Shown here: positions 737 through 57,226 of the stretch, piece after piece
Position numbering within the stretch: position 1 is the stretch's first letter
Layout: every line of letters starts with the position of its first letter
Notes under the pieces: model-generated
Told to the model about the DNA's origin: nothing
Databases searched by the model: none
The model's input: the letters and a program-made list of their open reading frames with translations, nothing else
NCBI GenBank assembly: GCA_963681505.1
Contig: OY811979.1
Span: forward strand, 7,275,182 to 7,339,181
DNA: 64,000 nt
Origin: Eunapius fragilis
Lineage: Eukaryota; Porifera; Demospongiae; Spongillida; Spongillidae
Reading direction: 5' to 3'
Position numbers and translations under genes: made by a program

Positions 737-2748
737 ATGTCAGATAAAGATTTTTCAACTAAAGGTATATTTTTCGTCTCTTAATGTAGCAATGTTTATC
801 CTAGATCCTTACTAAGTTTAAGTTGAATAGCTATACCCCTTACAATTATTCCCGCTATCCAAATTAGCTGTTGGAGGAGGAGATGAACCTGACGCCCTGG
901 CAGGATGATTCCCTGATTTAAATTGTTCAAACTCTACCCGAAAAAGAACCTTACAGTAGACGTTATATCCTAAGTCGTACCTAAGGTAGTCTTATGCATA
1001 TTGCATACATCAGTCCCTTAGTTAACCATACTGTAGGTTAACCTGAGTCGCATGGAGTTTAAATTCTGGTGCCGTTTGTAACCTCCGTAACAACCTTTCC
1101 TCTATTGTAATTAGGGGGCCGTGGAGGAAGAGGAGGGGACCGTGAAGGGCTAGAAGCTGGTAAGGATTCCCTGAGTTTCGGTTGTAAATGTTCACTGATA
1201 ACATGAGCCGGAGGGGGGGTGGGATCCTCCAACCATGTGACCTTACTAACCCCCTTAACAATCTTTCCTCTATCCTCTTTCCCCCCCCACATTGAACCAT
1301 TATGGGATCTCAACCTTCTTATTCTGGGAGGGGAAGTATCTAATTGCATTTAAATTGGAGGTTTAAGACTAAATTCCTAGATGGAGCTGGTGAGTATCAT
1401 GTAGAAAAGGAATTATTAACAACATAGCTGTTTCTTTCACCACAGGACCCAGTTTCAGTAGAGGGACAAAAAGAAGTAAGTAATGGATTTATTATGTCCA
1501 AGTGAATCATTATGTACGTAAGGGTTGTATATGTATTTTCACCAAGAAAATTGAATCAGTTAAGTTTAATCAGTCATCTCACTGCATCAGTTATATAAAT
1601 CACCTGCATTACCTCCAACCATGGATGTGATGGAAGCATCGTAGGATCTCTCCTAACTAGCTTAGAGAATAAATGTATGTGTTAGTAAAGATAAAACAAA
1701 TCAGTATGTGTTTTATTCTATTTCTAGGCTCAGGGCACACAATGAACACAAGTAGCAAGAGTCAATCAGAATATAATGAAGGTAAGGAAAGGATTCATTA
1801 AATGACTAAAGACGAATGGTGTCATGTATGTTTGGTGGTTATGTAAAATAAAATATATGGTTGTGAATTTTAGGGACATCAACTATGCACATATGCAGCA
1901 CATAGGGGCCTAAAGTACAAACACCTCATTCCATATATCTTCACCACCCACCCACCCACCCACCCAAATAGAGGAGGCGGAGGAGGCTAAGGACGAAGTG
2001 GAGAATGCTAAGCCCATGGAGGCTGAGACCACAGTGGTGGAGGCTAGGAAAGACATGGCGGAGGATCAAACTAATATAGTTCTGTCTGAGACCAAAGCTG
2101 AGGAGGCTAGTAAAGAAGTGGAAACAGCTGAGGTCAGAGTGGCGGAGGCTACATTCGTGGAAAAGAAGCAGGAAATACAGGAGACAATAAAAAGCAAAAA
2201 GAAGCAATTGGAGGAGCAAATGCAGAAATTGGAGGAAGAAAAGAAAGCATTGAACGAGCGAATACAGAAATTGGAGGAGCAAATGCAGAAATTGGAGGAA
2301 GAAAAGAAAGCATTGAACAAGCGAATACAGAAATTGGAGGAGGATTTGGCAAAAGAACAATCGGTACAGCAAAATGTTCTCCCATGCAGTGCATGCATGT
2401 GCACGTTCCATTCAGGCTGTAGATGTCATCATTTAGGGAAGTTTACATACATGCACTTCCAAATCATCCCTGATGTGCTTGGGGAACGATGGGTTGTGGT
2501 TCCTGGTAGTAATGTGGTCAAAATAGTGTATTACATTTAAGATTCTTATCTAATTAACCAGCAGACTCTGCAGAATGCTCAGACAATAAATTGGATACAA
2601 AGTCAGCTATCTCAGAAAGAAACACAACTATCTCAGAAAGAAACACAACTATCTCAGACAGAAACACAACTATCTCAGATACAAACTCAGCTATCTCAGA
2701 TACAAACTCAGCTAACTGAGAAAGAGAAGCAACTCACATCACTGCAAG
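737..2748 (+). CDS. Micro-exon gene A, 5' part: start exon, RGG exon, coiled-coil exons
   Basis: Exon chain read from splice signals: 737-764 (MSDKDFSTK, starts at ATG), 1115-1159 (RGG-rich, [12 protein letters not shown]), 1381-1389 (three codons), 1446-1475, 1728-1781, 1972-2363 and 2562-2748. Internal introns are phase 1 except the one between the last two exons (phase 0), whose summed length (579) is again divisible by three. 1972-2363 encodes a highly charged coiled coil with repeated [11 protein letters not shown] units; 2562-2748 encodes seven-residue TQLSQKE-type repeats. A further candidate exon at 869 ([13 protein letters not shown]) has GA instead of GT at its donor and is probably skipped. 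I infer that this is the N-terminal part of the locus whose NTPase exon begins at 11650; no transcript evidence is visible here. Function is not recognised; the pattern suggests an oligomerising N-terminus. Confidence 0.6.
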
Positions 2749-2839
2749 GTGAGGGAGTAATTGATGAGGGAGGGTGCACAGGGAAGCTGCTACATGTATG
2801 TGGAATTGTAATGAGATGTTAAATGGATGGTTGGATGGG

Positions 2840-3074
2840 TGGATCCATCCATCCATCCATCCATCCATCCCATCCCGTCCCATCCCATCCCATCCCATCC
2901 CATCCCATCCCATCCCATCCCATCCCATCATCCCATCCATCAATATATCTAATATTCCTGCCGGGCTTATATACAAAAGTAGGTCTACTAAAGTCCCTCT
3001 TACAGAGTGGTAGATCTACAAGTAATATCACAAAAGATAAATAGCACAGATTCCTAGAAGGGGCCCATGTATGT

Positions 3075-3106
<32 letters not shown>

Positions 3107-3496: not shown

Positions 3497-3545
<49 letters not shown>

Positions 3546-5330: not shown

Positions 5331-5339
5331 AAAAAGAAC

Positions 5340-6422: not shown

Positions 6423-9400
6423 CAGGGGCGGATACAGGAATTGAATGAGGGGGGTGTCCATAATGAATTATTAATGAGGGGAGGGGTACAATAGCAGCTA
6501 GGGGGTATGGGGGAGCGCTGTAAGCTCCCCCATCGGGGTCTGGGGCTCCGCCCCAGGAGCCAACGCTTTTCGCATCATTAATTAGCTTCCAAAAACCCAT
6601 GCTTAGCACAGTATAGATGCATGCATCTGAAATAGTCATATATCGTGATTTGTGTGCATGATGTACGTAGCTCAGTCGCATTTAAACTATAATCAGGCCG
6701 GGTTACAAAGTACTTCATTTAAATATCGGCGAAAAAGGGTCTATATCAAATAAGTGACCTCTACCACAACTTCTTTCATACGCACTTGAGACTATATACA
6801 TGTAATTACGCGTACATTTCACTTGTACGCGTCAACTTCGGCGCTCGTTTCTAGAAAATTTATATTATTTCGTCAGGTCCAATGATACATGTGTACGCAT
6901 GCAAGCATCCTGTATCTATTCAAAACCCGTACTATATAATGCTAAATATGTTATTGTATCATGTGTCATGCAATGCATGTAAATCCGGGAAACTAACTTT
7001 TTTTAACACAGCAATATATATGAATGACATGACATGTACAAATGAAATGCAATGACATGTACAAATGAAATGCAACATGGCTTACTCGAACAAAATACAA
7101 GATTTAAACATTCTTCTGTTATATTTACTAATATACTGTTGGCAAATTAGGTCAACATTAATTTCAATGTCATTATGCAGGTGCATTAGAGTTAGACCGG
7201 CAAGTCGCTCTGTAGTCATTGAACTTCGAATATAACTTTTTACTCTTCTGTAGCCAGAGAAAGACCTTTCAGCTTCACAGCTAGATACAGGAAGAGTACA
7301 CCCTATTTTTAATAGTACTATGATATTTGGATACACGTCTGCATCACAGCTGACAAAACTTGTAGACAGATCTTCAGGGATATCAGAAACTTCAGATCTT
7401 TTTGTCCAGTGCTTTTGCCACAACTTAATTTCACATAAAAGTGAAGAAGGGGAAGGCATGTCAAGTTTCCAAAAGAGCAAACCTTCCACTAATGGCTGTA
7501 AATTACTTAGTGTAATAATTATACTTGGAACTAAATTAAACAATTCATTACCTACTCTGTTCTCATGGTCAAATCTGCTACTCATTTCTTGATGTAAATG
7601 ATCTAAAAATGGGACTGCAACATTCACACGGTAATAACCTTCAGGTGTAGCACCATCTGTTGTGGCATTTGCACGATAAGTCTGTTTCCCAGCAATTCGT
7701 GGTACACTAATTTCACTACCAACAGCTTCCACAATTCTTTTAACATCTGAAAACTAATCACAAAACTCTGTTTCAATATTCTCTCTTAAATCCTTAATGT
7801 TACTTATTGTTTCATCAATCATATTCGATGCTGCGACAATGTTTCTGTAGTTTAACAGCAATAGGTCTAATTAATTCTAGAGCATTCTTTGCAACCAAAA
7901 ATGACACAATGTTTTGCGTTGACTTCAAGGAATGCAAGAGACCTTGTGCCTTTACTTTTGAATCAGAATCCCAATCCCAATTTTGGTCCAAATTTTTATC
8001 TAGATACACAGAAGGATTAATTATAGCTTCTAAGATAGACATACAGTTCATAAAATGTCTCATAACATGTATGCCGCTCCACCCAACGAGTCCGACAAAG
8101 TCCAAGAAGCTTGCTTTTGGTACAATCTGATTCAAAAGCATCCAAAATATGTTCAAAAAATCTTTGTCGCTTGGGAGAATTATTGAAAAACTTGAATGTT
8201 TCATTAATAACATCTACCATTGAACTTATTTGAGGAACCTTTCAAGCAGAGGCTATGCTAAGGTTAAGAACATGGCTTCTGCAATGGGTATATAAAGCTA
8301 GTGGGCACACAACTTTTATTCTTGCCTGCACTCCAACTCTTTCAGAAGACATAGCAGCTGCACCATCATAAGCTTGTCCTCTGCATTTGAGTATGTCGAC
8401 CTTGTTTTGGGCCAGGCTTAGCATAATAGCTTCTGCAATGTGTGCTCCTGTTGTTCTTATTAACTCCACAAAATCCAAGAACACTTCACTAATATTCTCC
8501 CCCTCAATAAAACGAACACAAATGGATAATATTTCTTTATTGTCATACTTCCCAGTAACTTCATCAGCTATGATTGAAAAAACACTGGTTGAAAGCTGTA
8601 ATGATTTTGTTGTACGTTCTCGAATATAATCAGCAATAATTGATATGATCTCATTTTGTGCTGTTTTTGATGTGCATTTAGCATTTCGTTTTCCTTGTTC
8701 AAGATGGTCCTTTAATACAGTATCAGTTTCAGCCATGAGGTGCAAAAGAGCCAAGAAATTTCCTTTATTAACTGTTGTAGATGTGCTATCATCTCGATGA
8801 CCACGTAAAGGTACATTTTGTTTTCCACAAAATATTATTGCCTTTACTATTGATTTTAAAATACTGAAATTTTTGTCATACAACTCCTTATTCAGACTTG
8901 AAATTTTATAAGGTAAGCTTGATTCTGGGTGTTCCAAACTTTCACATAAGGACATACTCCTTACTACCGCATCTTTATGATATTCAAGTTGTTCATGCAT
9001 AGCTAAATAACCACACTTCCCTGTTGCTTTATTGAACTTCTTCATTGGAATGGATACCAAAACACCTGTTTTGATTTGAGAAGTTGTGGGAGGAAACAGC
9101 ACATAATACTTGCAAAACCCTCCTTGTTGCGATGGGCTATATACTAGCCATTTGTGCTGCTCAAGCCAAGAATTTTGAAACGTGAGCATCTTCTGCTTTT
9201 TCCCACCTTCTTTTGGCACGATTTGTGTGGAAAATTTGTAATCTTTGCCTGGAACAAAATGATTTTTCAAAAAACTGGCCTTTTCTTGAGCTGAAAGTGA
9301 CGTGGACTGTATCGTACCACTGGCCACTTCACCAATGTCATGTGAATACGTGACAAGGGTGTCAGTATCTTCATAAGCTGCAACAGTTATAATTAATATC

Positions 9401-10208
9401 AAACATCAGTTGCATGCCTTTAAATTATGTAACTAGATAAAGTGATGACTTCAGTAATTATACTGCAACGATAACTATAACCTGTTGTTCAGTTGTAATG
9501 GTTGTGTAGATATATGCACATCATTGCCGACTACAAATGATACTGTGCACTTTAAACACATTTAATGTACCTGGTGTGACAGGTGTACTGATTTCAGAGT
9601 GTGCCGTCAATTGGCTGCCAGTATTACCAAAGGAGTGGTGCAATGACATCTCTGGAGCACAATCTATACAGAAAGAATTAGAGTTTTACTAACTCTATAT
9701 TTCTACAAACTTGCCTAGGGAGTCACTGCAACGAGATGTGGAGCAACAGGCACTCTGGAGACAACTGTGTGATTCTGCATGGTATACATGTATACATTTA
9801 AAACTATTGTACAACGAAGAAAAAATCAACACCATATCGTACCGCCAACATCCGATGTTTGATGCTGCGAAGAACCTCTAAAATTATCTGCTGCATGTGC
9901 ATACCCCGAACCGGAACTGCCTTCAGCTTCTACAAGTGGCTGGTCTGCTGTAACCATGGTAGCTAACCAATTAAAATAAAATAGTCATTATTTCTATACT
10001 TCCACCTTCACTGGCAATACGGAGAACTCTCGTGCTAAATGATTACCTGTTTGCTTCACTCGTTTTGAGAAAAACGTGAGTATCGTTGCTGACCGCTTTG
10101 TCGCCACGATAACCAGAAGTGGTTAAGATATGGTTGCGTTAATTTATTCATGATCGGCTGGAAGGGGGGTGTCCGGACACCCTGGACCCCCCCCTGTATC
10201 CGCCTCTG
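6423..10208 (-). mobile_element. hAT DNA transposon with terminal inverted repeats
   Basis: The left end CAGGGGCGGATACAGG (6423-) matches the right end CCTGTATCCGCCTCTG (ending 10208) in inverted orientation. CAGNGGCGGAT is a common hAT terminus. The element contains a minus-strand hAT transposase relic and sits inside a polypyrimidine tract. An exact 8-bp target duplication could not be resolved because the flanks are low complexity. Confidence 0.85.
7082..9957 (-). pseudogene. hAT transposase (zinc-finger MYM-like / DUF4371 type), decayed
   Basis: Minus-strand exons: 9957-9843 (start ATG), 9774-9715 (GC-type donor), 9663-9571, then a long exon from 9377. The two middle leader exons are 60 and 93 bp, both phase 1 on each side. 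The long exon holds a TTF-type zinc-finger region (SWLEQHKWLVYSPSQQGG) and a DUF4371-like catalytic region (FSIIADEVTGKYDNKE; KCRGQAYDGAAAMS). The C-terminal hAT dimerisation region near 7150-7350 reads CEAERSFSGYRRVKSYIRSS. A stop follows SIASA near 8242, and several stops and frameshifts lie between 8240 and 7732, so the gene is inactive. It would have acted as a cut-and-paste transposase on the TIRs at 6423 and 10208. Confidence 0.85.
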
Positions 10209-11571
10209 CCTCCTCTACCTCATCCTCCCCCTCTACCTCATCCTCCCCCTCCTCTACCTCCTCCCCCTCTTCTACCTCCGCCTCGTCTCCCCCTCCTCCT
10301 CCCCTTCCACCGTTTTGGGTAGGGAGGGAATTTAATATTAACCACTTTGTTTTGTTTCAATGGAAGTGTTGACCTTGATATATATATATACCTAAAAGTC
10401 AGTGGAATGTATTTTTTGGGATGTGCAAACTAAGTGCAACTAGAAAAGGCTATTATAAGAGGTTATATACAAAGCCTATGCAAGAACCGAAGCTCTAGAG
10501 CTCTACACAAGGGAATGTATGTTGGTATAAGCCTTTTATGAATATTATTATACACTTATCAGTACAGATTGTGGGTGGCCAGTGGTTTACATAGACAAGC
10601 AAGCATGGTAGAATGGTACTTTGGTAGAATCCAAAGTACCTTGTACATGCTCAACTTGGAAGTTAGAACAAGTAGTTTTGAACTACATGCGTGCATGTCA
10701 TGTCATGCGTGCATGTCATAGGAGTCATTCCCTCAGCAGTAGGTTTCAGGAGTGTCTAGACAAGTTGGTTGAGTTTTGAAAACGTCATTAATTGTATGCA
10801 TCATTCAAAGTATTAATCAATGTTAGCTTGTAACCATAGCTGTATGAATTAATGAATACATAAAAATTAATATAGATAGAAATTTAGCAGAGGTGGGGTG
10901 TTATGTTTAAGAAAATAAAAACATTTACACAAAAAATCTTCCTTCTGGGGAATCAACTCCCAAGTGGATGGCCAGGAATTTGGAAGTCATGAATTACCCC
11001 CCCTCCCCCCCCCCCCCCCCCCCCCATCATCAAGTTGCTTATTTAGTGTGGTCATCTGGTATTTCCTTCTGTGGTGATCCTGAGGCCCTTCCCTTCTCTC
11101 CCCTCGCATTTACAAGTCTGAAGGGGGGGGGGGGGGTGGAATAATAAGAAATGCTGGGGTTTATAATGGTAGTCACATTCATCATAGTGTGGTTGTCAGT
11201 TCATCATCATCTGATGTGGTCATCAGGTTGATAACTGATCAAATGTGGTCATTAGTTTAGTCATCTAATGTGATCATCAGGTTAATCATCGAATGTGGTC
11301 ATCAGGTTGTTTATAATGTACAGGTTCATCATCTGGTGTGGTCATCAGATTCATGCCTTCCCATCTCATCCCATCCCATAGGAAGATTTTGCAGGTGTTT
11401 TGAGATAGTTTTATGTCCGTATGTGTTAACAATTCATGTATACAATGAATCAAAGCATAATAGAAATACAAAAGCAAATAACATCAGCATTGACTACACT
11501 GAACACTGTGTGTATAGTTGCTTATTAATGTGATCATCTTTTGAGTTAAGTGTGTTCATTATGTCTTACAG
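10209..11571. other. No gene; polypyrimidine continuation, homopolymers, TGTGGTCATCA repeats
   Basis: 10209-10312 continues the CTCC-rich tract. 10995-11025 is a C run and 11120-11137 a G run. 11165-11345 is a degenerate array of TGTGGTCATCAGGTT-like units, related to the larger array at 27000-27860. Confidence 0.7.
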
Positions 11572-11592
11572 CTCAACACCAAGCTTACGAAG
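11572..11592 (+). CDS. 21-bp symmetric micro-exon before NTPase exon A
   Basis: Flanked by TTACAG and GTATGT; with a phase-1 entry it reads AQHQAYE and exits in phase 1, matching the entry phase of the large exon at 11650. It is probably spliced to it through the 57-bp intron 11593-11649, which would be very short. Confidence 0.55.
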
Positions 11593-11649
11593 GTATGTTG
11601 GATTTTTAGAAATTACAGGAGTGCAAGTCAAATGTACATGTATCTGCAG

Positions 11650-13278
11650 AATTTACAATATCGGAGCCTCAACCGTGTGTTGCTATTAGTGTAGCACCTA
11701 ACTCTACATTTGCCCATATTTCCTCTTCCTATTTAACCAATACTGGATTGAGTAATAATGAGTTCATTTATCTTCGAGAGTTTGTAAAAGATCAGTGTGA
11801 GTTTTTACAAACACAAGTTGTAAATCATTCAAAAATAGGTTGGATCGTTGGCCCTCCGGGAACAGGGAAATCAACAACGTCTTTTCTCTTTGCAATGCAA
11901 CTTAATCGCTCAAAGTGGGTGATAACTTGGTTGAGTTTTTTAAAAACGACTAACCCTGTCGCTACATTATTTGAAGATAACGAAAAGCGAACAGTATGGT
12001 TGAGTGGCAACATTACTGAACTCACAAAGCAATTTGATGCACTTATATCCCAAATGCAAACAAAAGCCAATAACTTGACCAGAAATCATATTGTATTCAT
12101 AGATGGTATAACACAAACTACAGATCATGCATCTTTATGCAAGTCTTGTGTGTCTTGGATTAAGAAAATGAACTCCATTGATTGTACTAATTGTCGATTA
12201 GTTTTTGTTAGCTCAGTGGCATCTCGTAGTAAGACGTCAAAAGTCCATGAAGACCGGATGTTTTGTATTGAAGAGTTCTTTGTTTGTTCTTGGACAATTG
12301 ACGAATATCGGTCAGCCTTTAAAAACAAAGATTTTCGTCAAAGTGTACTGAAGTATTTCGATTCCAGTCAATATTTATATGAAGAATTTAGTTCCAGTGG
12401 ACCACAAAATGATTTATCTAATGAAAAATTGGAAGAGTTATTGGAAGAGTTAATAGTTTCTAAACATTATTTTGCTGGTGGTTCTTCACGATTTATGTTT
12501 GGGATGAACACAGCTGATGTCGTTGTGCAATTAGAAAAGGGAATGGAGAATCTAGATGATATCCAGCGATATCTTAAATGTGAAGTGGGTTATAGTGTAA
12601 AATCTTTTGTTCATACCTTATTTGGCTTTTACAGAAATAGTCTTGAGTCGTTTAGACATGATGTATTTTTTATCAGTGAGTATTTAGCTTCGGCTTTAGC
12701 ATCGAAAGGTGGTGAGAGCTATATACAAAACATTATTTTAGCTATTGGGCAAAATAATCCAGCTCTGCAAGGCTGGCTACTGGAGATTAATTTTTTTGCC
12801 GCAATTAAATCAAATGGTTTTAAGTATAGGGAACGTGGTAAAATGGTCGTACAGTTGTTTACGGGAACCATATCATCATTTGATCCGTTGAATGTGGAAT
12901 CAATACCTGGAGAACCTGTTTGGTTGAAACCATCAAAATGGAATCAAGGTGGCTATGATGCTGTTTACGTGGATAAAGATCTAGGGCTTGTTAAAATAGT
13001 TCAAGTCACTCGCAGTGGAACACATAAATTCAAGATTGAATATTTTGAAAAGTTGTTGGAAATCTTAACATGTAAGATGCTAATCAAAATTGTTGAAATA
13101 TGTTTTGTGGTTACGGCAGATGTTTCGGAAAATTTTAAAATCTCAACTGTAAGTGGTGGACAGGGGCTATTAAAACAGTATCCAGGATGGGAAAGTATTC
13201 ATCATGAAGAAGATAATGTTAAGGTACTTGTTGCAGAAGGAATTACAATGCCTAGTGCCAACAATACCTCAACAAAAG
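11650..13278 (+). CDS. P-loop NTPase plus PD-(D/E)xK-like nuclease exon A (Crinkler/RHS-type)
   Basis: A single 1629-bp exon, phase 1 at both ends (CTGCAG before, GTAAAG after). A Walker A motif GPPGTGKST is encoded at 11850-11876, a Walker B-like IVFIDG at about 12090-12107, and a sensor-like FAGGSSRFMF at about 12472-12500. The C-terminal part has WLKPSKWNQGGYDAVY followed 15 residues after its Asp (codon at 12957) by QVTR. This D...QVT pattern with an upstream GG(x)2R motif is what I know from NTPase-REase modules of trypanosome RHS and Crinkler-type proteins; the assignment is by motif only. It probably acts as a nucleotide-driven module with a nuclease-like domain, in nucleus or cytosol. 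The reading frame is intact. It shares the whole architecture with 32818-34377 but is strongly diverged in sequence. The frame continues past 13278 only into intron. Confidence 0.72.
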
Positions 13279-14219
13279 GTAAAGGAATTATTATTACAGC
13301 TAATGCTTTGCACCAGTTCTTGCAATTTGCTCTGGCCTGGTCATATTGTAGCCATGTATCATGTTTACTACAATACCATTGTATGATATACATGTGTATG
13401 TGCATGCACCACATGTACCAGATCAGATGAAGACAATGGTAGGTCGTTTTAAATTAGTATGATGTGCTGCACAATTAGTTTAATCTGAATTGTGTAATCT
13501 GATCTGTTTAGTTAAGGCGTGTATCTGAATCTGATCTGATTAGCAGACGGATCCAGAGTACATTATCTGAATCTGAAGGTAACGGCCTTTGGATATCTGA
13601 ATATCTGGTTCCAGGGGCGTGGTTTTCGATCAAGCGCATGCAATGAAGCTTACCGTTTTGCTAAATTGTAGGAACGTTTTCACTTTGAGCTTCTGCCAAA
13701 TCTATGGTCAAATCCATCATAGACTGGCTCAGGCGAGTACTGAACGTACGTGAGAAATGAAACCAATGCTAAAAAAAAATACGCACACCCCATAAAATAT
13801 AAAACCAGCATGGGGGAAATGCCCAAATCGGAAAAGGGGGGCAAAAATTGAAATCGAAAAAGCATTAAGTACAAAAAAGGGAAGAAAAGCTATCCCACGT
13901 TTATTTCACACACCGTCCACCGTCTTTTGCTAAAAATACAAAACGAAACGGCCACGCGGACTGTTGAACTTGGGGGGGAAAAAATGGCTGCTCTTCCTCG
14001 GCCCCAGACCACCGGATACAGGAGGACATAAAAAGATGTATGTGGTGTTTAATGTGAGTGAAATCTTTATGTTATGAATGAATAAGTGCAAGCAATGGAA
14101 ATGGGAGATAGGGATTTGACGTTCAGGTTTCTAACTCAATCCCTTACCATACCATCCCCCAGATTGAACCACAGAATGATGGTAAAAATTGACATTTAAC
14201 CTCCCCTCCTGTTCTCCAG
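13279..14219. other. Intron or intergenic stretch, no exon recognised
   Basis: AT-rich with repeated TCTGAATCTGATCTGATTAG-like text near 13480-13600 and purine runs near 13800-13990. A weak exon-like item at 14162-14180 is 19 bp long and breaks the phase-1 frame, so I did not include it. Confidence 0.5.
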
Positions 14220-15662
14220 CTGCTCGTGTGCTTGAACAACCTCGACCTGTGAATGATGCTCTTGTGGTTGAACCACCTGTGGATGATGGTAAACATTAAC
14301 TCTTAAATTTATCCCTAACCTCCCCTCCTGTTTTTGGTAACGTTCCGTGCTCTGGATATTTTTATTCGAACCCTTAATTAATGACATTTTTTCAGTAACT
14401 ATCCTTAACCCCCCATTTATTTCCTCCCAACAAATGTATGTGCCATTTGTGGCCGGACGGTGTTTATTATTTTTTTTAAACAGGCCGAAGAGGAAGAGGA
14501 GGAAGAAATGGAGGAACAGGAAGAGAAGCAAGAGGAAGAGGTGGCGGTAAGGATAATTATTTTTATATCGAACCCTTAACAAATGACAATAAAATTTCTT
14601 CCCCCTCCTGTCCAACAACGACCTGTGAATGAAGTTGGTAAATATTGACATTTAACTCTTTTAGTTTTATTAACTTCCCTTACCATCCCCCAGCCGCTCC
14701 TGTGATTCATGTGAATGATGGTAAATCATTTACTAATTTTAGTTAATTCCTTAATTCAATCCCTTACCATTCTCACCTTCCAATCCTGTTAAACGTAACC
14801 CCCCCAAAAGCAGGTAGGGATTCTTTGATTTTAATAATAATCCTAAATGTGCCTTATGTAATTTTAGATATTCTAGATGTACATGTACTTGAAGTTAATG
14901 GTAGATTTCCCTTTATGTACCTGAAGTACCTAGGGTGTGTCTCATGTACTTTAAGTAATTGTGATGATGGATCTTTACTAAGTTAAACTGAAATCATTCA
15001 AAAATAGTTTATTAAAAATTATTCCCTCCCTCTATGCAATTTAGCAGCTCAAGGAGAAGAAGAACCTGACCCCCCGCCGGCAGGTAAGTATATTGTTGCT
15101 GTACAGTAGGACATTAAAAAGATTGTGGTATGCACAATTATTTAATGTGAGTGAAATCTTTCTATTATGAATAAGTGCAAGCAATGGAAATGGGAGATAG
15201 AGATTATTATTTTTATAGGGAGATAGGGATTATTATTTTTTTAATTGAACCGTTAATAAATATTCATCGCCAATACCCTCCTGTTCAGAATACTGCTGTG
15301 GATGACGTCGGTAAATATTTAACTTAATTCAATCCCTTCCCATTCCCAAACCCCTGTGGCGTTGGTATTTAACTTTCCGTAACCTTCCCTTCCTGTTAAA
15401 TGTAACCCCCGCCCCCCCCCCCCCCCCCCCCAAAGCAGGTAAGGATATTTAGATATTCGAGAACTAATTCTAGATGTAGGACATAAAAAGATGTATGTGG
15501 TGTGCACAATTAAATTAAAGTGAAATATCTTCCCTCCCTCAACAGATGAGAATGGTAAGAATTTAACTGATACTGATATCACATTTAACTGCAAGTCAAT
15601 TAGCTCCTCTCGTGAAGAAGCGTAAGAGGAGGGGGAGGCCGCCCAAGGCAGCAAAGAAATAG
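14220..15662 (+). CDS. Micro-exon gene A, 3' part: acidic and RGG exons, AT-hook tail
   Basis: Phase-1 exons read from splice sites: 14220-14288 (69 bp), 14484-14546 (63 bp; GRRGRGGRNGG, RGG-rich), 14694-14720 (27 bp), 15048-15083 (36 bp; AQGEEEPDPPPAG), 15546-15554 (9 bp) and the terminal exon 15604-15662. The last reads APLVKKRKRRGRPPKAAKK and ends at TAG. RRGRPP is an AT-hook core within a strong nuclear localisation signal. Because NTPase exon A leaves in phase 1, all of these can be appended in frame. I infer one transcript from 737 to 15662. RGG and AT-hook elements suggest RNA or DNA binding in the nucleus. Confidence 0.6.
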
Positions 15663-15759
15663 AAACTACATCATTTGGCTTCTGCCCCTCCCCCTCCCCT
15701 CCCTCTCTTCAAAATCGTTTTATGAATCAAATGGCATGTGAATATGGGTGGGTGGGTGG

Positions 15760-22925: not shown

Positions 22926-23189
22926 AAAGTTGCGCAAAATGGTATAACTTTTAACCATTTACATAAACTGAGCAGTGACTACTAATCATTAATTACTGGC
23001 ATGATTTTGGTTTCAATAAAGTTTAACCTGGTTAAATAGAATAGCTGCCTTGCGCTGCCTCAGGATGTTAACAGCCCTTGGAAAAGTTACAAATGGGTGA
23101 CACTAGCGATGCATCTGGAAGCCATTTTTTAAAAGAAAAAAAAACAAATGGCGTAATGCCTAAATCCAATGTAAACAACTGCTCTCAGC

Positions 23190-39567: not shown

Positions 39568-42500
39568 TCACGAATCATCCACTGGGCTGCTGGAGACAGA
39601 TCCCAGAACACTCACATTCTGCACTGGCTTAGTAAGTTGCAGCAAGAAATCCACCACATTGGAGGTTTTTATTCCGGCATATGAAGCACTGGGGTCTGCT
39701 TCCAATATCATCTCCAGAACCTGCGTGAAGATTTCTTCAAGACTCTCTCTGTGACTTCTGTATAAACCCATTGCAAGGATCAGCACATACACATCTGGCA
39801 CGATGACATACCTTTTGCCAGCCGCAAAGGCAGGGAAGAAGGCACCCAACACCCCTCTCAAATGATCATCATCTTCGCAATTTGGACTGTACCAGAGAAG
39901 CAGGAGACGTGCCAACAGCTTCTGGCTCATGATGCGACCACTAAGGAACAGCTTAGCTAGTCCCTCTGCAGCCACACTGCATAGCAAGTGACTCTACACA
40001 AATGAGCACATATGGCATGTGTATATACATTTTCTGAAAAGCACGACAAACCTCTCCGTCGAGAAAATCGGCCAGGATGCCGACAATCTTTTGAGTGGTT
40101 TTGTTGTGACCTTCAAGATCGTCACACTTAGATGTAGCTTTTTCAATGGGTTCTCCATTCACATCTCCATCCAGTGGGTGATCATCAAACTACATGATAG
40201 ACATATAATGCACTTGATGTATGATTTTGGGAAGTAAAATAGACTCTGAATCAGTTTTAAAGAAGGAAAAACTACAAAGTTTCCATACAAAAGGTTAACT
40301 CCTGAATAAAAATTAACAAGTGTGCAAAGCAAGATGTACAGATACTGATAATACCATACGCAGATTGTGCACATGCAGATTTCAGCACACAATAAATGTT
40401 GGTACTTGTTTTGTATGCTCAACTGTGCAGAATTGTTAATACACAGTACTGTACCAGCCACACGCTTTATTTTGCAAGTGCCTTGATGTATCTACAGTAA
40501 TTCATCTTTGATTCTTGAGTGGCACCAGAAATATGGGCTCCAATAAGAGAACTTAAAGTCCACAGCACATGCTTAATGCAAACATGGAGTCCGTCATCAA
40601 TCCAGTCCCCCCGGCTGACAAACTAATTCCCATTTAACTGGTAGCTATGCATTACTCACCACAACACCTTCGTCATCACCACTCTGGTGATCTGGAGCAG
40701 CGTAGGCCTCAAATCCAAACAGATGGAGGAGGTCAAATACTATCTTCAGGGCCGTGGCCTGCAGCAATTCGTGGTCAACCTGACTAACCTGCAACAACAA
40801 CCACACCCCTCCAATAAAAAAAAAAAGCAATAGAAAGATTACACCCAACAGACAGCACCTGTAAGAACAGTAGGAGATACTTCTGGGCCAGACTCACATC
40901 AACAATACAGGCAAGACCCAAGCAGTTGAAAGCCAAGTCTCTGACAAATGGATCTTCGTTTTGCACGCACGGGAGAACCTGGAACAATACAAAGCACAAT
41001 GACAGTGAGCCTTATTTACGCATGGTCTGGAAAAAAAAAGGGCCTTTCAAAGGGTTTTTAAATGAAAATCAGAGTGATGGTGGTACCCTCTACAGGATAA
41101 TAATAATAATTCCTACATGCCACAAAAGCAGTGCAGAATTTTAGGTGTACATTTCAGCGACAACCTATTGGTTCCCAGGTACATTTCTTTCAACGACAAC
41201 CTATTGGTTCCCAGGTACATTTCAACGAAACCAACTATTGGTTCCCAGGAAGTGTACGCCTCACGTAAAGCTCCTGACAACTCACCAGCGCATCCAAGAG
41301 GGTGAGTAATGTGGGATTGAGTCTCTTCATTTTGGTCTCTCGCAGCATCTCGGCTGCTATCACCAAACACTTGATAAGTGTATTTGAGTCACTCTTCACA
41401 AGACAAAGAGATGGTAAAGGTGACATATAGAAATACTAAAAGGATAGTCACGCACCCTGAGGTCAAGTAACGAGACGTTGACAAACTGGGACTCGCTCAT
41501 CTGGGTACAATCCGGTGCCAGGGTGCTCCTCACATCAGCACTCCCATCAGAGCCCTCCACAATGGGAGGCTGCCTCAGATCCGCAATCAGTTCTGTCAGC
41601 TTTTCGATCCTAAGAAGGACAACAAGATAAGTGTTTGGCATACTGCGTCATCCCATGTGTGACGGTCGTCCGAACCTGTAGGTCTCCTGTGGCCATATGT
41701 CTGCCAGCCTTGCCAACAACGGACCGACCAGGCCAGAAGGGAAGTTTGGCATCATTGTCAGATCATACACTAACTTTGCCAGTCGTCTTCTGCAGATGAC
41801 AGAGATGCACGGTGCACAAACACTACCACTCAAGTCTTCTAGTGAGTGTATGCATTTTAACAAACGATACAAGAATGCTCTCCTCTAGTGCTCAGTGGAA
41901 TCATTAATAAAATCACAGTGCAATGGTGGCACACCATAACAGTGTACTGCAGAAGCACTACCTTTCCTGTAGCCATGCTGCCCCACAAACCCACAAACAC
42001 AGCCACAGCCATTCCTAATGTAAATGTACGATCTTAAAATCAAAGGTATCACAGGGTCCACCCATACAAATACAGACACGAGCGAAACTCTGCAAATCTA
42101 TTATTGTTTCCCACACCTTCCAACCTCATCGGCAAAATCAAGCACTTCAAACATGGAGAAGAGCTGTTGTGTGATGAATTGGCTTTGTAGCTTGCTATGC
42201 ATCTCTTCGTGCTTCAGGAATACTTCAGTGACATACCTACACAGAGGCAGCAGACATGCAGACATATCATAAATGCATTGGATTAGGATCAGAATCATAC
42301 TTCTGCACGTATTCGCAGTATTCACCCAACGTGGGCACTATCTTTTCCAGCTGAATCTCTCCCTCTGGACCCTTCTTGCTGAAGTACCTGCATGCCGGCA
42401 CACAAAGTAAACAAGACAGTCACAATACGCACACACACACACACACTCACACACACCTGCACATACAGCTCCAGAAGAAAGCCATATCACAGTTCAATGC

Positions 42501-45500
42501 CTCATATCTTACCACTCTTGATAACTTCACGCTAGTCTGAAACCAAGAATCCATCCAGTTTTTGTTATTATTTTATTTACTATTGATACAAAACATGGCA
42601 CAACTGACTTTGTCCATCTCAACTTCTCCACCAGATGCGACCGGATTAACAGTAGCCCCCTGACCTTCTAAAGTGCTCTCTTGCTCCTCCTCCTGCCCAG
42701 GTTGGCCTTTCTTCATGAATTCCCTGACTAGGTTTTCGTTGGAATAAAGGCTTTCAAAAAGTTTGAATAATGCCTTTTCAGCCAACTTGGGAGAACTCTC
42801 AACATCCAGTTTATGAAGCAGGTGCGTGAACTCCGAGTCGAGCTGCAAGAACCAATTCCTTAGCAGTCCTGAGACGCACGCGTCCTGAACCAGGTCATTT
42901 CGATCATTGAGTCCAGCTTCAAGGAGGTCCATGCGTTGCCCAATGGTGAGGTTCATGATGGAACAACTCTCTGACAGTACTATGAAGGCTGCATGCCTTA
43001 CAGAGTCCTTCACGTCCCGAACACATTCAAGCAGTACTAAAGGAGTTGGATAAAAGAGCATGAAACTTGTTACCACTTAAGGATGTCTGGTTTGGTTGAG
43101 TTGAACAATCAAATACACTGTAATTATGTTGAAAAACAAATTAAAACACACTGCAGCAATAACTATCTCGATTAACCTTGCTTTAGAACAATACAATCAA
43201 GAACAAATAATTTTCATGGCAATCGGACAGCAACGAAGTGTCCTAATTGGATTATTAACCCGTTTATGAGGCGTCCCAGAGGAACGCATTTTCAATGTCA
43301 ATGAATCGGGGCTCCTGTGCCAAAGTACAGGCTTGGCACGGAGGCGCTCAGGGGTAAGGCTGGCAAAAAGGATGAGAGCGCCAAGGAGCGCATCACTACT
43401 GTTAACTTTGCCTTCAATGCCACTGGAACTATCAAGACACCTCTCCAGGTGATAAATAAGTCCAAGAAACCAAAATGCTTCCTTGCGAACGGAGGAGTGA
43501 CCTGGGACCCCAAGAAACACGGCATCACATACTATCATAACCCTACAGCATGGCAAACTAGGGAAACATTTACCAGCTTCCTTGATAACTTCTCCCTACA
43601 AATGCATGAAGTTTTTAAGCACAAGACGATACCCTTCACCCTTCCTGAAGTTGATGAGTGTGATGAACATGTACTGAATATTTTGGCTGTTTTCCTAATG
43701 GATAACCATGCTTCACATATCCCGGTGAATGCTGAGCAGTTTAAGATCAACACTGCCTTCCTCTACAAGGACATCCTTGGAATATTCTTGCCTCCCAACA
43801 CAACGTCTGTTGTGCAGCCCCTAGTTTGCTTTAAACGCAAGTGGCGAGCTAAGCTTGTGTCATGGCTGCAGGGCAAGGGCGGGACAGGCTTGGGCACCTG
43901 GCATCTCCAGATGTGAAGCAGGCTATGTTGTGGGCTCGGGATGCACTCACTGAGGGACATTCCTGAAGAAGTAGTTAAGAACTGCTGGAGAAAGGCCGGT
44001 ATCCTTCCCTTTGAGGTGAACCAGCGGTACATTGAGGACAAGGAGAAGGTGTTGAAAGGTGATGTTCAGATGCAGAAGGCAGCAGATCATCTTGCTGATC
44101 TTTTTGGAAAGCTCAGCACAGTGTACTCTGAATCTCAGGAGGAGGAGGCTGTATGTCAGTTCAACTCTACATGGCTAACAGAGGAGGGGATGGATGCACT
44201 TGATGTGTTGGCTCCTCTGGTGGAGAGTGACTGTGAGCCTGATGATTTTGAAGGTTTTGTTAAGGTTGTGTTTGAGGATATGGAGGATGTAGAGGTAATC
44301 AATGAGCCTCCTGTCATTTCGTTACATCAGGCTCAAAGAAGATGCGGGAGCTCATGGTGTTCTTTGAGTCTCACATTGCCATGAGCCAAAACCAAGCTCA
44401 TAGGGAGCATTGGCTAGAGCAGCTGGCAATGCTTGGCAAGGTTGAGGACCAGCTCACTATGCACAAGAAGCCACCCACAGGCAGACATCACTAAATGTTG
44501 ACTTTTGTAACCCCTACCCTATACATGTACATGTACCGCATATCAAACGCCATGCTCCAATAATAACTGCTGGGAGGGTCAACAGGGGTAAGTTTACATA
44601 AATACAAAGTGAATCTCGTTAACGGTGGGTAAACACTGGATCGCTAGGAACACAATAAGGGTGTATGTCATACTAATTAATCCCTAACCACACCACAGGG
44701 CCTCCTGTTTAAAACAGCAGAGTTCAATCAAAACAAAACAACACTTTCAGATTTGCGATGGAGTCAGTGTCTCCAAATATTTTGCATGCATCACGCATTA
44801 AATTGCAAGTTATACACAATTCTGCAAACATTAATACTTGGAGCATTTAGTGTGCCATACCTGGGAGAGTCCTCTCACAGACACTAATGGCTTGGAGAGC
44901 AGACTTCCTGACATCAGCACTGCTGTCGCCCCTCACTATGTTAAGAAGGGTGCTAATTGCTGGACACTCCTTGTCTTCAGGAGATTGGAAGTGGCCCAGG
45001 GTCTGAACAGCGTGGACACGAACAGCTGGGACCTAAACAAAAAAAATAAAATTATTTAAGGCTAATTGAAAATTTTAAAAAGCACAGGATGCCTTGCGTG
45101 ATTTTGTGGGTACTACAAACCTTGTCGTACGCTCTCTGCAGCATTACCGTCAGCAGCGCGTCTCCATAGACGATGCGCACTTTCTCCTGCGCGGCAAGTG
45201 ACAGCATTTTATTGATTATCTGGCAAACACGGAACCTGACGGCCTTATCTTGCGCCTCGTGATACCCGACCAGTTTGAGAACCATCAGGTTTAGGAAATC
45301 AACTGTTTCGTCATCTTTGACATCGGACGAAGAACGTTCATCAATGTCATTTCCGTTCTCGTCTCTTTTGGTCCCCAAGGCGATTGCAAACTTGCAGACA
45401 AAATCCACAACTCTTTCTACGGCTGGCTCACGTTTATACACTAATAATACGTTCGAAAAAGGTGTGAAAAAAGCTTGAAAAAATACGTCCAAACCATGCT

Positions 45501-45600
45501 GGTCGTGCAGAGTTCTCATAGACTTCAGCGACTTCTGATATTTGTACAAGCCATCCTGAATTTCGTCCAGAATTGCAATAATATCTTCCCTCAAACCCAT
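39568..45600 (-). CDS. NCAPG: Condensin complex subunit 3 (CAP-G), 13 exons
   Basis: HEAT-repeat subunit of condensin I, which with SMC2/SMC4 and CAP-H compacts mitotic chromosomes. Exons: 45600-45121, 45032-44861, 43036-42609, 42536-42457, 42387-42301, 42236-42117, 41789-41676, 41609-41456, 41393-41286, 40978-40859, 40788-40660, 40189-40052 and 39993-39568. They sum to 2556 bp, an open frame of 851 residues from ATG to TGA; vertebrate CAP-G is about 1000. Exon 1 carries LLVYKREPAVERVVDFVCKF, matching the VYKREPAVERV signature of CAP-G. Exon 3 has IGQRMDLLEAGLNDRNDLVQ and the last exon VAAEGLAKLFLSGR and LLLWYSPN, all family hallmarks. Introns are GT-AG and mostly 50-200 bp. A decayed Tigger element sits in intron 2 on the opposite strand. 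The basic tail of vertebrate CAP-G appears shortened. Confidence 0.93.
41145..41252 (+). repeat. Three tandem ~36-bp repeats in an NCAPG intron
   Basis: Repeats of CAACCTATTGGTTCCCAGGT with an ACATTTC spacer. CCAAT-like boxes (ATTGG) occur once per unit. They lie in the intron between the exons at 41286 and 40978. Confidence 0.8.
43285..44494 (+). pseudogene. Tigger/pogo-type DDE transposase relic in NCAPG intron 2
   Basis: Contains IFNVNESGLL (family usual form has Asp where the second Asn stands), KKPKCFLANGG, LMDNHASH, FLPPNTTSVVQPL and WRKAGILPFEV, the DDE core and C-terminal region of Tigger-like transposases. The frame shifts near 43910 and again near 44335, then ends at TAA 44492-44494. 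The right terminal repeat may be GGGAGGGTCAAC near 44574, resembling Tigger ends; the left end is lost. It lies opposite to NCAPG. Confidence 0.82.
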
Positions 45601-46149
45601 CGCACCATTAACAGAATTGCTATCCTCGCGCCAAAATATCCGTGTGGCATCTCGTGATATTTTCTTTTCTTCACTCTAATACAAGCGCACTGGAAGACTT
45701 TGTTTACAAGATTTTATACATTAATTTCACAATGGCTTAGGAACGGTTCAAAAAAAAGTGGGGCTGAAATGTATTATTCATAAGTGGGTGTGGTGATCGA
45801 AAAATATTTTGAAGCAGTATGTAACCTTATTGCAGGTAGCCGCGCAAAGCTTTAATACCTTTCGCATGGGCGTACGGCCAACGCCGTAGACAACGGGGTG
45901 CTTGGGGGTGCTGAAGCACCCCCAAATTTTTTTGGAAGACCATTTCTAAATCATCAAAGCACTAGTAACGCTACATTATAGGCGATCTATTACAATATCA
46001 GTGTAGTTATCAATTTAATATACTGCGGTTTATAACTGTTCGCTTGCTGCTCATTGCTCGATTCCAAGTGTACCTCAGAAGAAAGTTATATTTCCATTTT
46101 GAAGTGTGTATTTCAAAACCTTGGCTTGGGAGTAGATGACGCTCACCCA
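45601..46149. other. NCAPG upstream region, no gene
   Basis: 45601-45720 is the likely NCAPG promoter area. 45840-45950 contains a G-rich stretch with GCACCCCCAAAT inverted around 45905-45930. No TATA box at a convincing position. Confidence 0.4.
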
Positions 46150-46905: not shown

Positions 46906-47660
46906 TATGGATGACTGGGATTGGAATATGAATATGAATGACATGGGACGGGAACGTTCGTCTGGGACGGCCACGGGACGGGGTTACGAATTATTATTTT
47001 GCTGTTTTATGGAAGACCGTTCTGTCATTTATTTATTTTTAACCGTCTACTTGTCATCAGTACTAGATGATTTGCAGCGAGAGCGTGACCGTCAAGGTAG
47101 GTTGTGTTGTATAACAATCCCAGTCAGGAATTTGTTGGCAGGGGGTTAGAGCGCGTCCGCGATCTCTCATATGTTGCAGTGATAGCATCGTAGCAACGTA
47201 TAATGGTTGCCTAGCAGCATGTTGAAAATCTTAACGAATCACGTGCGTCGTGGTAAGTTAGCAACACACAATAACGAGATTTTATTTTCCCATCAGCTGC
47301 TATAGGTGACAACGGTGTGGAAGCAGGTAAGAATTTCCTTTTTTTTTTTTTTTAAAGTTTCCCACCTAATTTTATTTTCCCACCAGTTGCTCAGGGTGTT
47401 GGTGTTCCAGGCACAGGCATTGGTGGGGAAGAGGGTAAGAATTTCTTTTCTTTCAAAGTTTATTCACACTAACAGTTCCTGTAGCCATTACGGGCTTTGA
47501 GCGTTTGGTTATCCTGCTACGTAACCATTCCACAGTCCTGGTTGGTTAAAGTGTGCATTTCATATTTCTTATTTACAATTAAATTGATTTAGCCAAACAC
47601 CATGCTGGGACTGATTAAGATTGACAACAATGAGGCCATTGTGGTGAGAAACTTGGCATC
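46906..47660 (+). pseudogene. Micro-exon gene D, degraded copy of the 55-57 kb gene
   Basis: Two phase-1 exons remain: 47297-47326 (AAIGDNGVEA) and 47387-47434 (VAQGVGVPGTGIGGEE). They match 55547-55585 and 55636-55686, and the flanking introns are also alike (47077-47280 vs 55324-55540). The following stretch at 47591 matches 55861 but breaks off after the GTGGTG near 47645. A GGGACGGGAACGTTCGTCTG repeat at 46935-46985 replaces the upstream part. A start exon was not found. Confidence 0.6.
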
Positions 47661-54346: not shown

Positions 54347-54643
54347 ACAAGTAAATAAAAACATTCTCTAACGAGAAAGTTGGTGGGCTTATAGGATTGA
54401 CAATGTTGGTGTAAAAAGCACGGAAACAAGTGTGACAGAAATGTTACTGGAAAATTGAAATAGGCCTATATTTAGCCCAGTCACATTTAGGCAGCGCACG
54501 CCTGAGAAAATGGGCTAAATATAGGCCTATTTCAATTTTCCAGTAACATTTCTGTCACACTTGTTTCCGTGCTTTTTACACCAACATTGTCAATCCTATA
54601 AGCCCACCAACTTTCTCGTTAGAGAATGTTTTTATTTACTTGT
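54347..54643. mobile_element. Near-perfect palindromic MITE
   Basis: Arms of about 130 bp (starting ACAAGTAAATAAAAACATTC) flank a ~35-bp loop near 54480-54510. Related sequences lie at 5340-5550 and, as one end only, at 63348-63395. Confidence 0.92.
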
Positions 54644-54955
54644 GTAATGTAAGATATACTGTTGAACCTACCACTGATGAGTGTATTTATTGTAATAATA
54701 ATAATAATAATATTATATCATAAAATTTAATATAGTTGCACTAGTACTTCTGCACCACCATTGCACTGTGATTTTATTATTTATTAAGAATAATTAATGC
54801 GGCCGGATGGGGTCACATGGCACTGATTTTAAATAATTTATTCACGTGCACTGCTACACGATGCTCGCAACGGTGAGTATTGAGCGACGGGGATTACCGG
54901 TCATGCATGGGGTAGTCTGCTCCAAAGGACTAACGTGATGTGATCTGGTTTACAG

Positions 54956-57226
54956 ATGGATGGGAGAAGAAACGCTTGTATGCGTGCTCTGCGCCGCGGT
55001 ATGTTTTTTCCCCTATCACTTTTTCCCCCCCTTTCTCTTGTTTTTTCCCCTATCATTATATATTGGGCTATTCCAGTTAAAAATCGTACATGGGTACTGA
55101 TGACATCGCCGCATACCTCCGGATAATAGCTAGTAATCATAGAATACTAGTGGTTATCCGGAGGTATGCAGCGATGTCATCAGTACCCATGTACGATTTT
55201 AAACTGGAATAGCCCATTGTCTTATTCACAGACATTAGAGTAGCACAAGGATGTAAGAGACACTTCTGTCATTTATTTTTATTTTACCCATCTACTTGTC
55301 AACAGTACTCTATGATTTGCAGCAGCGAGAGCGTGACGGTCAAGGTAGGTTGTGTTGTATAACAATCCCAGTCAGGAATTTGTTGGCAGGGGTTTAGAGC
55401 GCGTCCGCGATCTCTCATATGTTGCAGTGATAGCATCGTAGTAACGTATAATGGTTGCCTACCGGCATGTTGAAAATCTTAAAGATCATCACGTGCGTCG
55501 TGGTAAGTTAGCAACACACAATAACGAGATTTTATTTTCCCATCAGCTGCTATAGGTGAGGCTGGAAACAACGGTGTGGAAGCGGGTAAGAATTTCCTTT
55601 TTAAAGTTTCCCACCTAATTTTATTTTCCCACCAGATGCTCAGGGTGGCGGTGAGGAAGCAGGCAGAGGTATTGGTGGGGAAGAGGGTAAGAATTTCTTT
55701 TTTTTCTATTGTTTCTTTCAAAGTTTATTCACATTCACAGTTCCTGTAGCCATTAGGGGTTATTTTGAGAGTATTGCCTCCCTGCTACGTAACCATCCTA
55801 CTGTCCTGGTTGGTAGAAGTGTGCATTTCATATTTCTTATTTACAATTAAATTGATTTAGCCAAACACCATGCTGGGACTGATGAAGATTGACAACAATG
55901 AGGCCATTGTGGTGCGAACCACAATGGCCTCACAACAATTTGGCATCTCCCCAGATATAATCCTGAGGGAGATAGCGTACAGCCCCAGCCGCTGTTTTGG
56001 AAAGGGGGAGCGGAAGTTCCGCTTCAAGGTCCAGGGAGGCGGCTACCAGCAGGCCAACTGTTTGGGGGTGTATCTTTGTTGCCTCCCTGCAACTTTGAAG
56101 CAGGAATTGAAGACCTTGCTTGAAGGCACGCATACTGTACATTTACCTATTTCCAAGACATCCCAATATGTGTTTTTTTTTTTTCAAACAGTTCCAGCCC
56201 AACTGCCTGCCCCTGTCGCCCAAGACCCCCTTCAGCCTGGTATGTGCAGCATTGAATACTGATCATTAATCACTCTATAACACAATCACTCTTTTATAAC
56301 CCCTCCTGACGTTGTTTTCAAACAGTTCCAGTCCAGCTTCCTCCCCCTGATGTTGAGCACGTAGCCCAAAACCCTGGTATGTGCAAGCATTGCAATCTCA
56401 CTCTGAAATGATCAATCACTCTAAAACTCAAACACACTCTTGCTGTTCTTCATGTCATGTGAAATTCAGAAATGTCTGTTCTCTGCTCTCCAAATAGAAG
56501 CCTCTTCCCCTCCCCAAGACCTGGAGGAGGGTATGGGACTGTCCCCCGATGCCAGGGCCTCAGCTGAGGAGAGAGAAATGCGCCCTGCTCTACGTGGTGA
56601 GGGTGGTGTGAGGGGGTGGGGTATGTTATGTGAGGGACAGGCAACTCTGCTGCCTATCCATTTGTCACTCTCTCTTTCCGTAGGACTTGCTACGTCCACA
56701 CCCATCAGGGGTCCTCATGCTAGCTTGGCCCCCCCCACCTCCCCCCACCGCCCCCCTGTTTATGCTGGCCCCCGCCTAGCCCCAGTTGAAGTAGCAGGAG
56801 GTAACACTGAAAAAAGACTAATAAATCTCCCTGAAATTACTCTCTTTCTGCATTAGATGCCTCCCACCCAGCCCCAGTTGAAGGAACATGTGGTAAAACT
56901 TTAATGACTCATTTTACCATCTCTGTAGTTCAAGGATGTTTTGTGTTTTCACACATAATCGAAATTTCATTTTCAAACTCAACACCACACAATATACACA
57001 CATCTTATAGCTGCAGCACATCCTGAGGTCCCCCTTGGTGGTAAGCAGTGCTTACACATCTGCAAAATTTCAATAACTCTGAAATGACCATCTCTTGTTT
57101 GTAGTTCGAGCTCAGGCCTCTCCCTTTCTTGAACCAGGTAGAACTGTTTAAATGTTTTGTTTTTGTTCAAGTCAAGGAGTGTATTTTAAAACTTTCACTC
57201 ATCTATAGTGCTACAACATCAGGAAG
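54956..57226 (+). CDS. Micro-exon gene E: ten symmetric phase-1 exons
   Basis: Start exon 54956-54998 (MDGRRNACMRALRR, donor GTATGT, phase 1). Then 55547-55585 (39 bp), 55636-55686 (51), 56192-56239 (48; VPAQLPAPVAQDPLQP), 56326-56376 (51), 56498-56596 (99; EASSPPQDLEEGMGLSPDA), 56684-56800 (117; Pro-rich), 56857-56892 (36), 57011-57040 (30), 57105-57137 (33) and 57209-57226 (18). All ten are divisible by three, and each starts after AG and ends G before GT in phase 1. An extra segment from 55861 (MLGLMKIDNNEAIVV, then FGKGERKFRF) is open in phase 0 only, so it belongs to another isoform or an older gene; its relatives at 36505 and 47591 show it is repeated. The product is Pro/Gly/Glu-rich and probably disordered. 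The 3' end is cut off by the repeat at 57298. Function unknown. Confidence 0.62.
55065..55215. mobile_element. Palindromic MITE in gene E intron 1
   Basis: Arms of ~65 bp (GGGCTATTCCAGTT, CATACCTCCGGATAA) pair almost perfectly; ATT flanks both ends (55062-55064 and 55216-55218), a possible 3-bp target duplication. Confidence 0.88.

Follow-up and report, generated by a model that had tools for sequence, protein, structure and literature searches.

Small phase-1 exons in a sponge gene family that are probably duplicated, lost and moved mostly in frame

Do the many short exons in this part of a sponge genome follow a common rule, and if so, to what does the rule belong? The window studied here is a stretch of 64,000 nucleotides of Eunapius fragilis (contig OY811979.1; C9:7275182-7339181 in the genome searched, G000, of 218.9 Mb and 24 contigs). 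A preliminary description had proposed that short exons in five separate loci have lengths divisible by three and lie between phase-1 introns (class 1-1 exons), and that this allows skipping, duplication and shuffling of exons without loss of frame. We focus on gene E, a many-exon gene at 54956-57335 on the + strand. With a probability of roughly 0.85, gene E and its relatives are a sponge protein-coding family in which small phase-1 exons are duplicated, lost and moved in a frame-neutral way. The gene structure was established by homology, and both frame-keeping insertions or deletions (indels) and changes in exon number and order were found among the copies.

Twelve exons of gene E within 55232-57226 have AG and GT borders, a length divisible by three and phase-1 introns on both sides (21, 39, 39, 51, 48, 51, 99, 117, 36, 30, 33 and 18 bp; Table 1). 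The 36, 30 and 33 bp exons fall below the splice-score cut-off and were placed by eye, and a single chain of the ten exon lengths listed earlier was not found with a fixed cut-off, below which these three score. The exons of the supposed row of ten were confirmed, but the row is interrupted by two asymmetric exons, one of 68 nt that goes from phase 1 to phase 0 and one of 265 nt that goes from phase 0 back to phase 1; as a pair they restore the symmetry. Behind the 265-nt exon lies a GC-AG intron (56126-56191), and GC is found there also in three of the four other mappings described below (P0083, and P0084 twice). Phase 1 was rejected for the 265-nt exon, where by eye it leads to an early stop, and the homologues give phase 0; a Pfam scan of this exon found no domain. 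The first exons with ATG all end in phase 1, in gene E (43 nt) as well as in locus A (28 nt) and the Cys-rich gene (175 nt) of the same window.

Homologous proteins offer a view of these junctions from outside the window. The spliced gene E model, used as query with a 72-nt version of the 68-nt exon and with the 265-nt exon left out, matched 12 proteins (best E 6e-70), two of them named Ephydatia muelleri (NCBI) and ten Em-tagged (EukProt), the latter presumably being the AUGUSTUS models of that species. Labels used here for proteins of the gene E family are P0082, P0083, P0084, P0087, P0088, P0089, P0090 and P0093. P0082, the best match, shared 226 of 241 aligned residues with the model. The matches place the genome near Ephydatia among the freshwater sponges, and this degree of identity suggests a species other than E. 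muelleri. Ten of the 15 junctions of the corrected model were matched in at least one of the 12 proteins, and nine of those ten are in phase 1, against one of 13 in the condensin subunit 3 gene of the window (Fisher p 1e-4), a control of one conserved gene that counts among its 13 introns one (39811-39757) within an uninterrupted open frame, possibly not an intron. Spliced alignment that was free to choose any phase placed P0083 on C9:4.98 Mb(-) with 17 exons and phases 1111110111211111, where 14 of the 16 introns are phase 1, at an identity of 353/375 among plainly matched residues. In this counterpart 11 of the 15 internal exons are class 1-1, the symmetric phase-1 arrangement expected of exon shuffling. 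P0084 on C9:4.98 Mb(+) gave phases 1111110112 (8/10 in phase 1) and P0082 on gene E itself 11011110 (6/8). Pooled, phase 1 was found in 28 of 34 introns in these three best mappings and in 40 of 52 in all five.

The shared part of these proteins appears to lack folded domains. In a Pfam scan of six family proteins, P0082, P0083 and P0089 had no match, and the LEM domain of P0087 and the sub-threshold matches of P0088 (Ig) and P0093 (DUF498) all lie outside the shared small-exon part; the predicted fold of P0084 had a mean pLDDT (predicted local distance difference test) of 44. Exon borders did not coincide with the borders of folded domains in the six proteins scanned or in the fold prediction. 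P0087, which is Em-tagged, joins its LEM domain to the family start. This model may be a fusion, because in the present genome the LEM match (good on C6, weaker on C1) and the family exon (C9, C2 and C22) are on different contigs.

Comparison of the order of matched pieces indicated that the copies differ in both exon number and exon order. Full exons of the VPAQLP type occur twice in gene E, twice with a partial third at C9:4.98 Mb(-), and once each at C9:4.98 Mb(+), C9:4.968 Mb and C2. The pair of 117 and 36 bp exons, at least in its 3' part, is found once per copy or, at C9:4.968 Mb and C2, twice. In the C5 copy the 18-bp exon is followed by the start of the 99-bp exon, an order shared by P0089 (VLQHQE-EASPPPQDLEEG), and a 30-bp exon there resembles the 33- and 18-bp exons fused in frame. 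Class 1-1 exons have thus been duplicated or moved between genes, and the proposal of duplication and shuffling without frame loss is supported, the frame being mostly kept. The small exons could instead serve mainly for skipping and inclusion and so produce many protein variants per gene, in the manner of a micro-exon gene, and frame-neutral exons of 18-117 bp, which make up 582 of the 995 nt (58%) of the gene E model (14% of it in exons of 36 bp or less), would permit this. We consider it unlikely, since the variation observed is between gene copies, just five of the 12 symmetric exons are of 36 bp or less, and no signal peptide was visible in the gene E model (start MDGRRNACMRALRRDIRVAQGLL) when judged by eye, without a predictor.

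The copies also indicate how the exons have changed in length. Gene E pieces were matched at 74 places in the genome, the small-exon tail of the first NTPase (nucleoside triphosphatase) gene at 25 and locus A at 20, the query included. Removal of overlapping alignments and of those with >99% identity left 57, 25 and 5 alignments for the indel test, with the region 55862-56191 excluded; the counts for indels and exon alignments use the 72-nt version of the 68-nt exon, and the 9-bp tail exon was placed one base off, which makes its rows unreliable. Among copies on several chromosomes, 45 of 66 distinct exon indels were multiples of three in length against 41 of 131 in introns (p 9.7e-7). The difference was found in gene E (34/53 vs 32/89, p 0.0016) and in the NTPase tail including its terminal exon (8/9 vs 6/31, p 0.0003), and was not significant in locus A (3/4 vs 3/11, p 0.24). 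Exon length differences in gene E were multiples of three in 41 of 48 cases, compared with 1317 of 2634 in a non-independent set of random intron segments. Fully covered exon alignments of gene E kept AG, GT and the open phase together in 54 of 62 cases; all were kept in 2/6 exon alignments of the NTPase tail and 1/2 of locus A, both small sets affected by the misplaced 9-bp exon.

These copies might alternatively be mostly decaying recent segmental duplications, with the triplet indels arising from slippage in triplet repeats. The copies are recent, eight of the 62 gene E exon alignments fail at least one of the above features, pN is close to pS (see below), and widespread tandem and segmental duplication is described for E. 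muelleri in the part of its genome paper available to us (PMC7385117). However, the introns of the same alignments have a weaker triplet share, also when only indels of at least 3 nt are counted (45/52 in exons vs 41/84 in introns, p 8e-6), and 58 of 62 exon alignments retain the splice dinucleotides, which makes decay a decidedly improbable account of the family as a whole.

Several observations weigh against a family of small exons kept in frame. Five of the 15 junctions of the gene E model, mostly 3' ones, were matched by none of the 12 proteins, and P0082 reads the 36-bp exon of gene E in a different frame. Two poorer mappings were less uniform: P0084 on C9:4.965 Mb(+) had phases 1121111012 (7/10 in phase 1), and P0090 on C9:4.965 Mb(-) 11111020 (5/8) with 102 of 178 residues identical. 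The E. muelleri gene models are AUGUSTUS predictions with RNA-seq training and not transcripts, according to the available part of PMC7385117. For the first NTPase gene, a spliced model of 649 residues matched 40 proteins, none of which covered more than 83% of it, which leaves the tail of this gene without protein support. Some gene E copies are broken. Moreover, in 30 of 38 alignments (p 2e-5) the exons had diverged further than the introns next to them, and in gene E copies the nonsynonymous difference (pN 0.124) was close to the synonymous one (pS 0.138), so that no conservation of amino acids is seen among the copies; low-complexity sequence and gene conversion could contribute. In gene E copies, the frame is mostly kept and the sequence is not.

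Whether the rule extends beyond the family was addressed with candidate exons defined by splice scores alone (acceptor/donor cut-offs, with scores set from general knowledge). At cut-offs of 2/4 the + strand of the window without the duplication had 27, 7 and 17 candidates with lengths of 0, 1 and 2 modulo three (p 0.003), and the excess weakened at stricter scores (16/4/11, p 0.03 at 3/4; 8/1/7, p 0.13 at 3/5). At 2/4 the ten gene E clusters, both strands taken together, had 69/40/45 (p 0.002). No significant excess was detected at this cut-off on both strands of 31 other loci, which include some weak family relatives, for example on C22, C18, C14 and C1 (20/25/22, p 0.77), on the - strand of the window (6/3/4, p 0.24), or on its + strand after removal of 1-2000, 11001-15700, 23701-27000 and 54901-57300, which hold gene E, the first NTPase gene and loci A and B (12/5/10, with 12/27 divisible by three, p 0.15). 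Because the excess is found in the gene E clusters, and not in the 31 other loci or in the + strand without these regions, the signal is a property of the gene family and not of the window. The rule was therefore overstated as window-wide, and the condensin gene does not follow it either: its 13 placed introns have phases 0/1/2 in the numbers 8/1/4, the splice score is positive for 11 of the 13, and for one more junction no position was found. In this gene, the exons that follow the first one were assigned by resemblance. A DDE_1 piece lies at 43305-43916 inside the span of this gene on the opposite strand. That the rule is an artefact of calling any AG...GT pair with an open frame an exon is true for part of the earlier list, where locus B repeats locus A and one exon of locus A has no donor, but it is highly improbable as a general explanation, being opposed by the independent gene models and the indel test and, for gene E, already contradicted by the homologous models; for locus A, with its non-significant indel test, and for the Cys-rich gene it may still apply.

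In the family reading, one larger exon would form the core of the gene, with many small exons with mostly phase-1 borders around it. As such exons are frame-neutral, units of exon plus intron could duplicate in tandem, vanish or move from one member of the family to another; the route is probably unequal exchange. Small indels would survive best as multiples of three. The product would be a variable chain rich in proline, alanine, glycine and glutamate, which is probably disordered and may be located inside the cell or in the nucleus, and the tail of the NTPase gene would have the same small-exon design with a basic, AT-hook-like end. A farther-reaching version, which we regard as rather doubtful, is that these intracellular, possibly nuclear proteins form a family specific to sponges, in which phase-1 shuffling continues to generate diversity of disordered regions; loci, and perhaps individuals, would differ in the number and order of their exons, and selection would favour change and not conservation.

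The other loci of the window share parts of this design. In the preliminary description locus A and locus B were counted as separate, which they are not: 1-2919 and 23708-26990 are one duplication with 99.7% identity over 1.5 kb in self-comparison. Class 1-1 exons are present in locus A, the Cys-rich gene, the NTPase tail and gene E, as had been claimed, with the exception of the 36-bp exon of locus A at 868-903: in both copies GATGAT stands behind it in place of GT, and GTATGG is retained in a copy on C1. For the Cys-rich gene, the reported exons of 18 and 69 bp were recovered, and a 66-bp exon was found here instead of the reported 54 bp.

Both large NTPase exons are open in phase 1 only, in agreement with the earlier reading, and begin by eye at a comparable codon split (G|AA ahead of Phe/Trp-Thr), while being 33% alike. 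They match named oomycete Crinkler (CRN) proteins and chytrid proteins with PF20147, and so have the similarity to the CRN NTPase/nuclease; the N-terminal PF20147 was not found in a scan of the two NTPase frames by themselves. No named Ephydatia protein was among the 81 + 40 NTPase matches. The terminal peptide KKRKRRGRPPKAAKK of the tail is basic and AT-hook-like. Past the donor proposed for this first exon of the NTPase (13278-13380) the related protein P0037 carries on with the identical peptide GKGIIITANALHQ, so the 3' border of this exon is uncertain or the intron unusually conserved. Genome search with the second NTPase gave 18 matches, ten of them on C9. Near-identical copies of the two NTPase regions were observed at C9:7383433-7390467 (~98 kb off) and C9:6261737-6268050 (~1 Mb off), and these are either recent duplications or assembly duplicates. 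Along the window copy's branch of the second NTPase, 44 changes are nonsynonymous and 5 synonymous (p 0.03 or 0.008, depending on the assumed transition bias), and all branches pooled gave p 0.20 or 0.07, with a stop or 1-nt gap in three compared copies; selection on the window copy is thus only suggestive. Pieces of a hAT-type transposase (PF05699, DUF4371) are located at 7082-9405, between locus A and the first NTPase.

Table 1. Positions of the gene E exons and of the other genes and exons discussed, numbered from the first nucleotide of the window
Feature	Position	Strand	Remarks
Gene E, first coding exon	54956-54998	+	43 nt, ATG, ends in phase 1; counterpart in P0083 (MDAAINASMRALRR) by spliced mapping
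Gene E, 21 bp, class 1-1	55232-55252	+	junction to 43-nt exon matched in 4/12 homologous proteins
Gene E, 39 bp, class 1-1	55306-55344	+	36 bp in 5/6 copies listed, 1 out of frame
Gene E, second 39 bp, class 1-1	55547-55585	+	30, 33 or 42 bp in 7/7 copies listed
Gene E, 51 bp, class 1-1	55636-55686	+	12 alignments listed: 57 bp in 5, 42 in 2, 48 in 1, out of frame in 4
Gene E, 68 nt, asymmetric, phase 1 to 0	55741-55808	+	both junctions matched in 12/12 homologous proteins; exception to the rule
Gene E, large 265 nt, phase 0 to 1	55861-56125	+	followed by GC-AG intron; absent from the earlier list
Gene E, 48 bp, class 1-1, VPAQLP type	56192-56239	+	copy comparison, spliced mapping
Gene E, 51 bp, class 1-1	56326-56376	+	tandem relative of 56192-56239, 72% including flanks
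Gene E, 99 bp, class 1-1	56498-56596	+	93 bp in the single copy listed
Gene E, 117 bp, class 1-1	56684-56800	+	only phase 1 open; 2/5 copies listed out of frame
Gene E, 36 bp, class 1-1	56857-56892	+	copies 33, 36 or 39 bp; different frame in P0082
Gene E, 30 bp, class 1-1	57011-57040	+	junctions without match in homologous proteins
Gene E, 33 bp, class 1-1	57105-57137	+	junctions unmatched; apparent in-frame fusion with next exon in C5 copy
Gene E, 18 bp, class 1-1	57209-57226	+	junctions without match in homologous proteins
Gene E, proposed terminal exon with stop	57298-57335	+	no homologue support; weakest part of the model
Partial copy of gene E 5' part	47061-47434	+	36, 30, 48 bp exons; 87% identity
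Locus A	737-1781	+	ATG exon, class 1-1 exons of 45, 9, 30, 54 bp; 868-903 without donor
Locus B	23708-26990	+	duplicate of 1-2919
Cys-rich gene	18583-19781	+	175-nt ATG exon ending in phase 1, then class 1-1 exons of 18 (19508-19525), 66 and 69 bp (19713-19781)
21 bp class 1-1 exon ahead of first NTPase exon	11572-11592	+	sequence reading
First Crinkler-type NTPase exon	11650-13278	+	1629 nt, only phase 1 open; 3' end uncertain
Tail of first NTPase gene	14220-15554	+	class 1-1 exons of 69, 63, 27, 33, 39, 9 bp
NTPase tail, terminal exon with stop	15604-15662	+	encodes KKRKRRGRPPKAAKK; C5 copy 9 nt shorter
Second Crinkler-type NTPase exon	32818-34377	+	1560 nt, only phase 1 open
Condensin subunit 3 gene	39431-45675	-	control; rule not followed

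Elsewhere in the window there are a Bcl-2 family gene in a single open frame at 61629-62162 (PF00452, E 3e-17), an inverted repeat at 29005-30840 whose 540 bp arms are 95.6% alike and flank a minisatellite, and tandem arrays at 22420-22924 and 23180-23537 with spacings of ~25 bp and 23/46 bp. The Bcl-2 family gene and the condensin gene mark the window as animal DNA.

Among known proteins, hypothetical proteins of E. muelleri (EMCRGX_G029769; Em0295g6a, Em0812g3a) belong to the same family as gene E. They are unnamed, and neither their exon design nor shuffling is described in the part of the genome paper available to us (PMC7385117). The E. muelleri models were transferred by Liftoff, as stated in the accessible part of PMC12221973, from which the EMCRGX names would derive. 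Within the limited coverage of our search, the literature on small exons, exon symmetry, exon duplication and Crinkler in sponges contained nothing on this family.

The comparison with the micro-exon genes of flatworms, made in the preliminary description, is apt for the small symmetric exons: those of schistosomes likewise have them over much of the coding region and show fast protein change. In contrast, their products have signal peptides, and such genes are apparently found in platyhelminths only (PMC4350168, in the part available). Judging from its sequence, gene E is not a micro-exon gene of the flatworm type, because no signal peptide is visible. The casein and other SCPP (secretory calcium-binding phosphoprotein) genes of vertebrates also have short exons divisible by three, disordered proteins and gain and loss of exons, but their introns are in phase 0 and their products secreted. 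Closer in phase is the class 1-1 module shuffling of Patthy, in which exons divisible by three between phase-1 introns have been duplicated and moved; according to the available part of PMC8001218, however, the classic modules are folded and mostly extracellular, whereas gene E has short pieces and no visible signal peptide. In a reviewer's comment accessible with PMC6335736, it was argued that shuffling of symmetric modules is an unlikely source of skipped exons, which mostly encode disordered regions. What seems new here is that class 1-1 exon shuffling involves proteins that are probably disordered and apparently intracellular. In this sponge family short exons have been duplicated and moved, mostly in frame, and the copies are young enough for introns and exons to be compared directly, so that an early-branching animal offers a test of how symmetric disordered exons arise.

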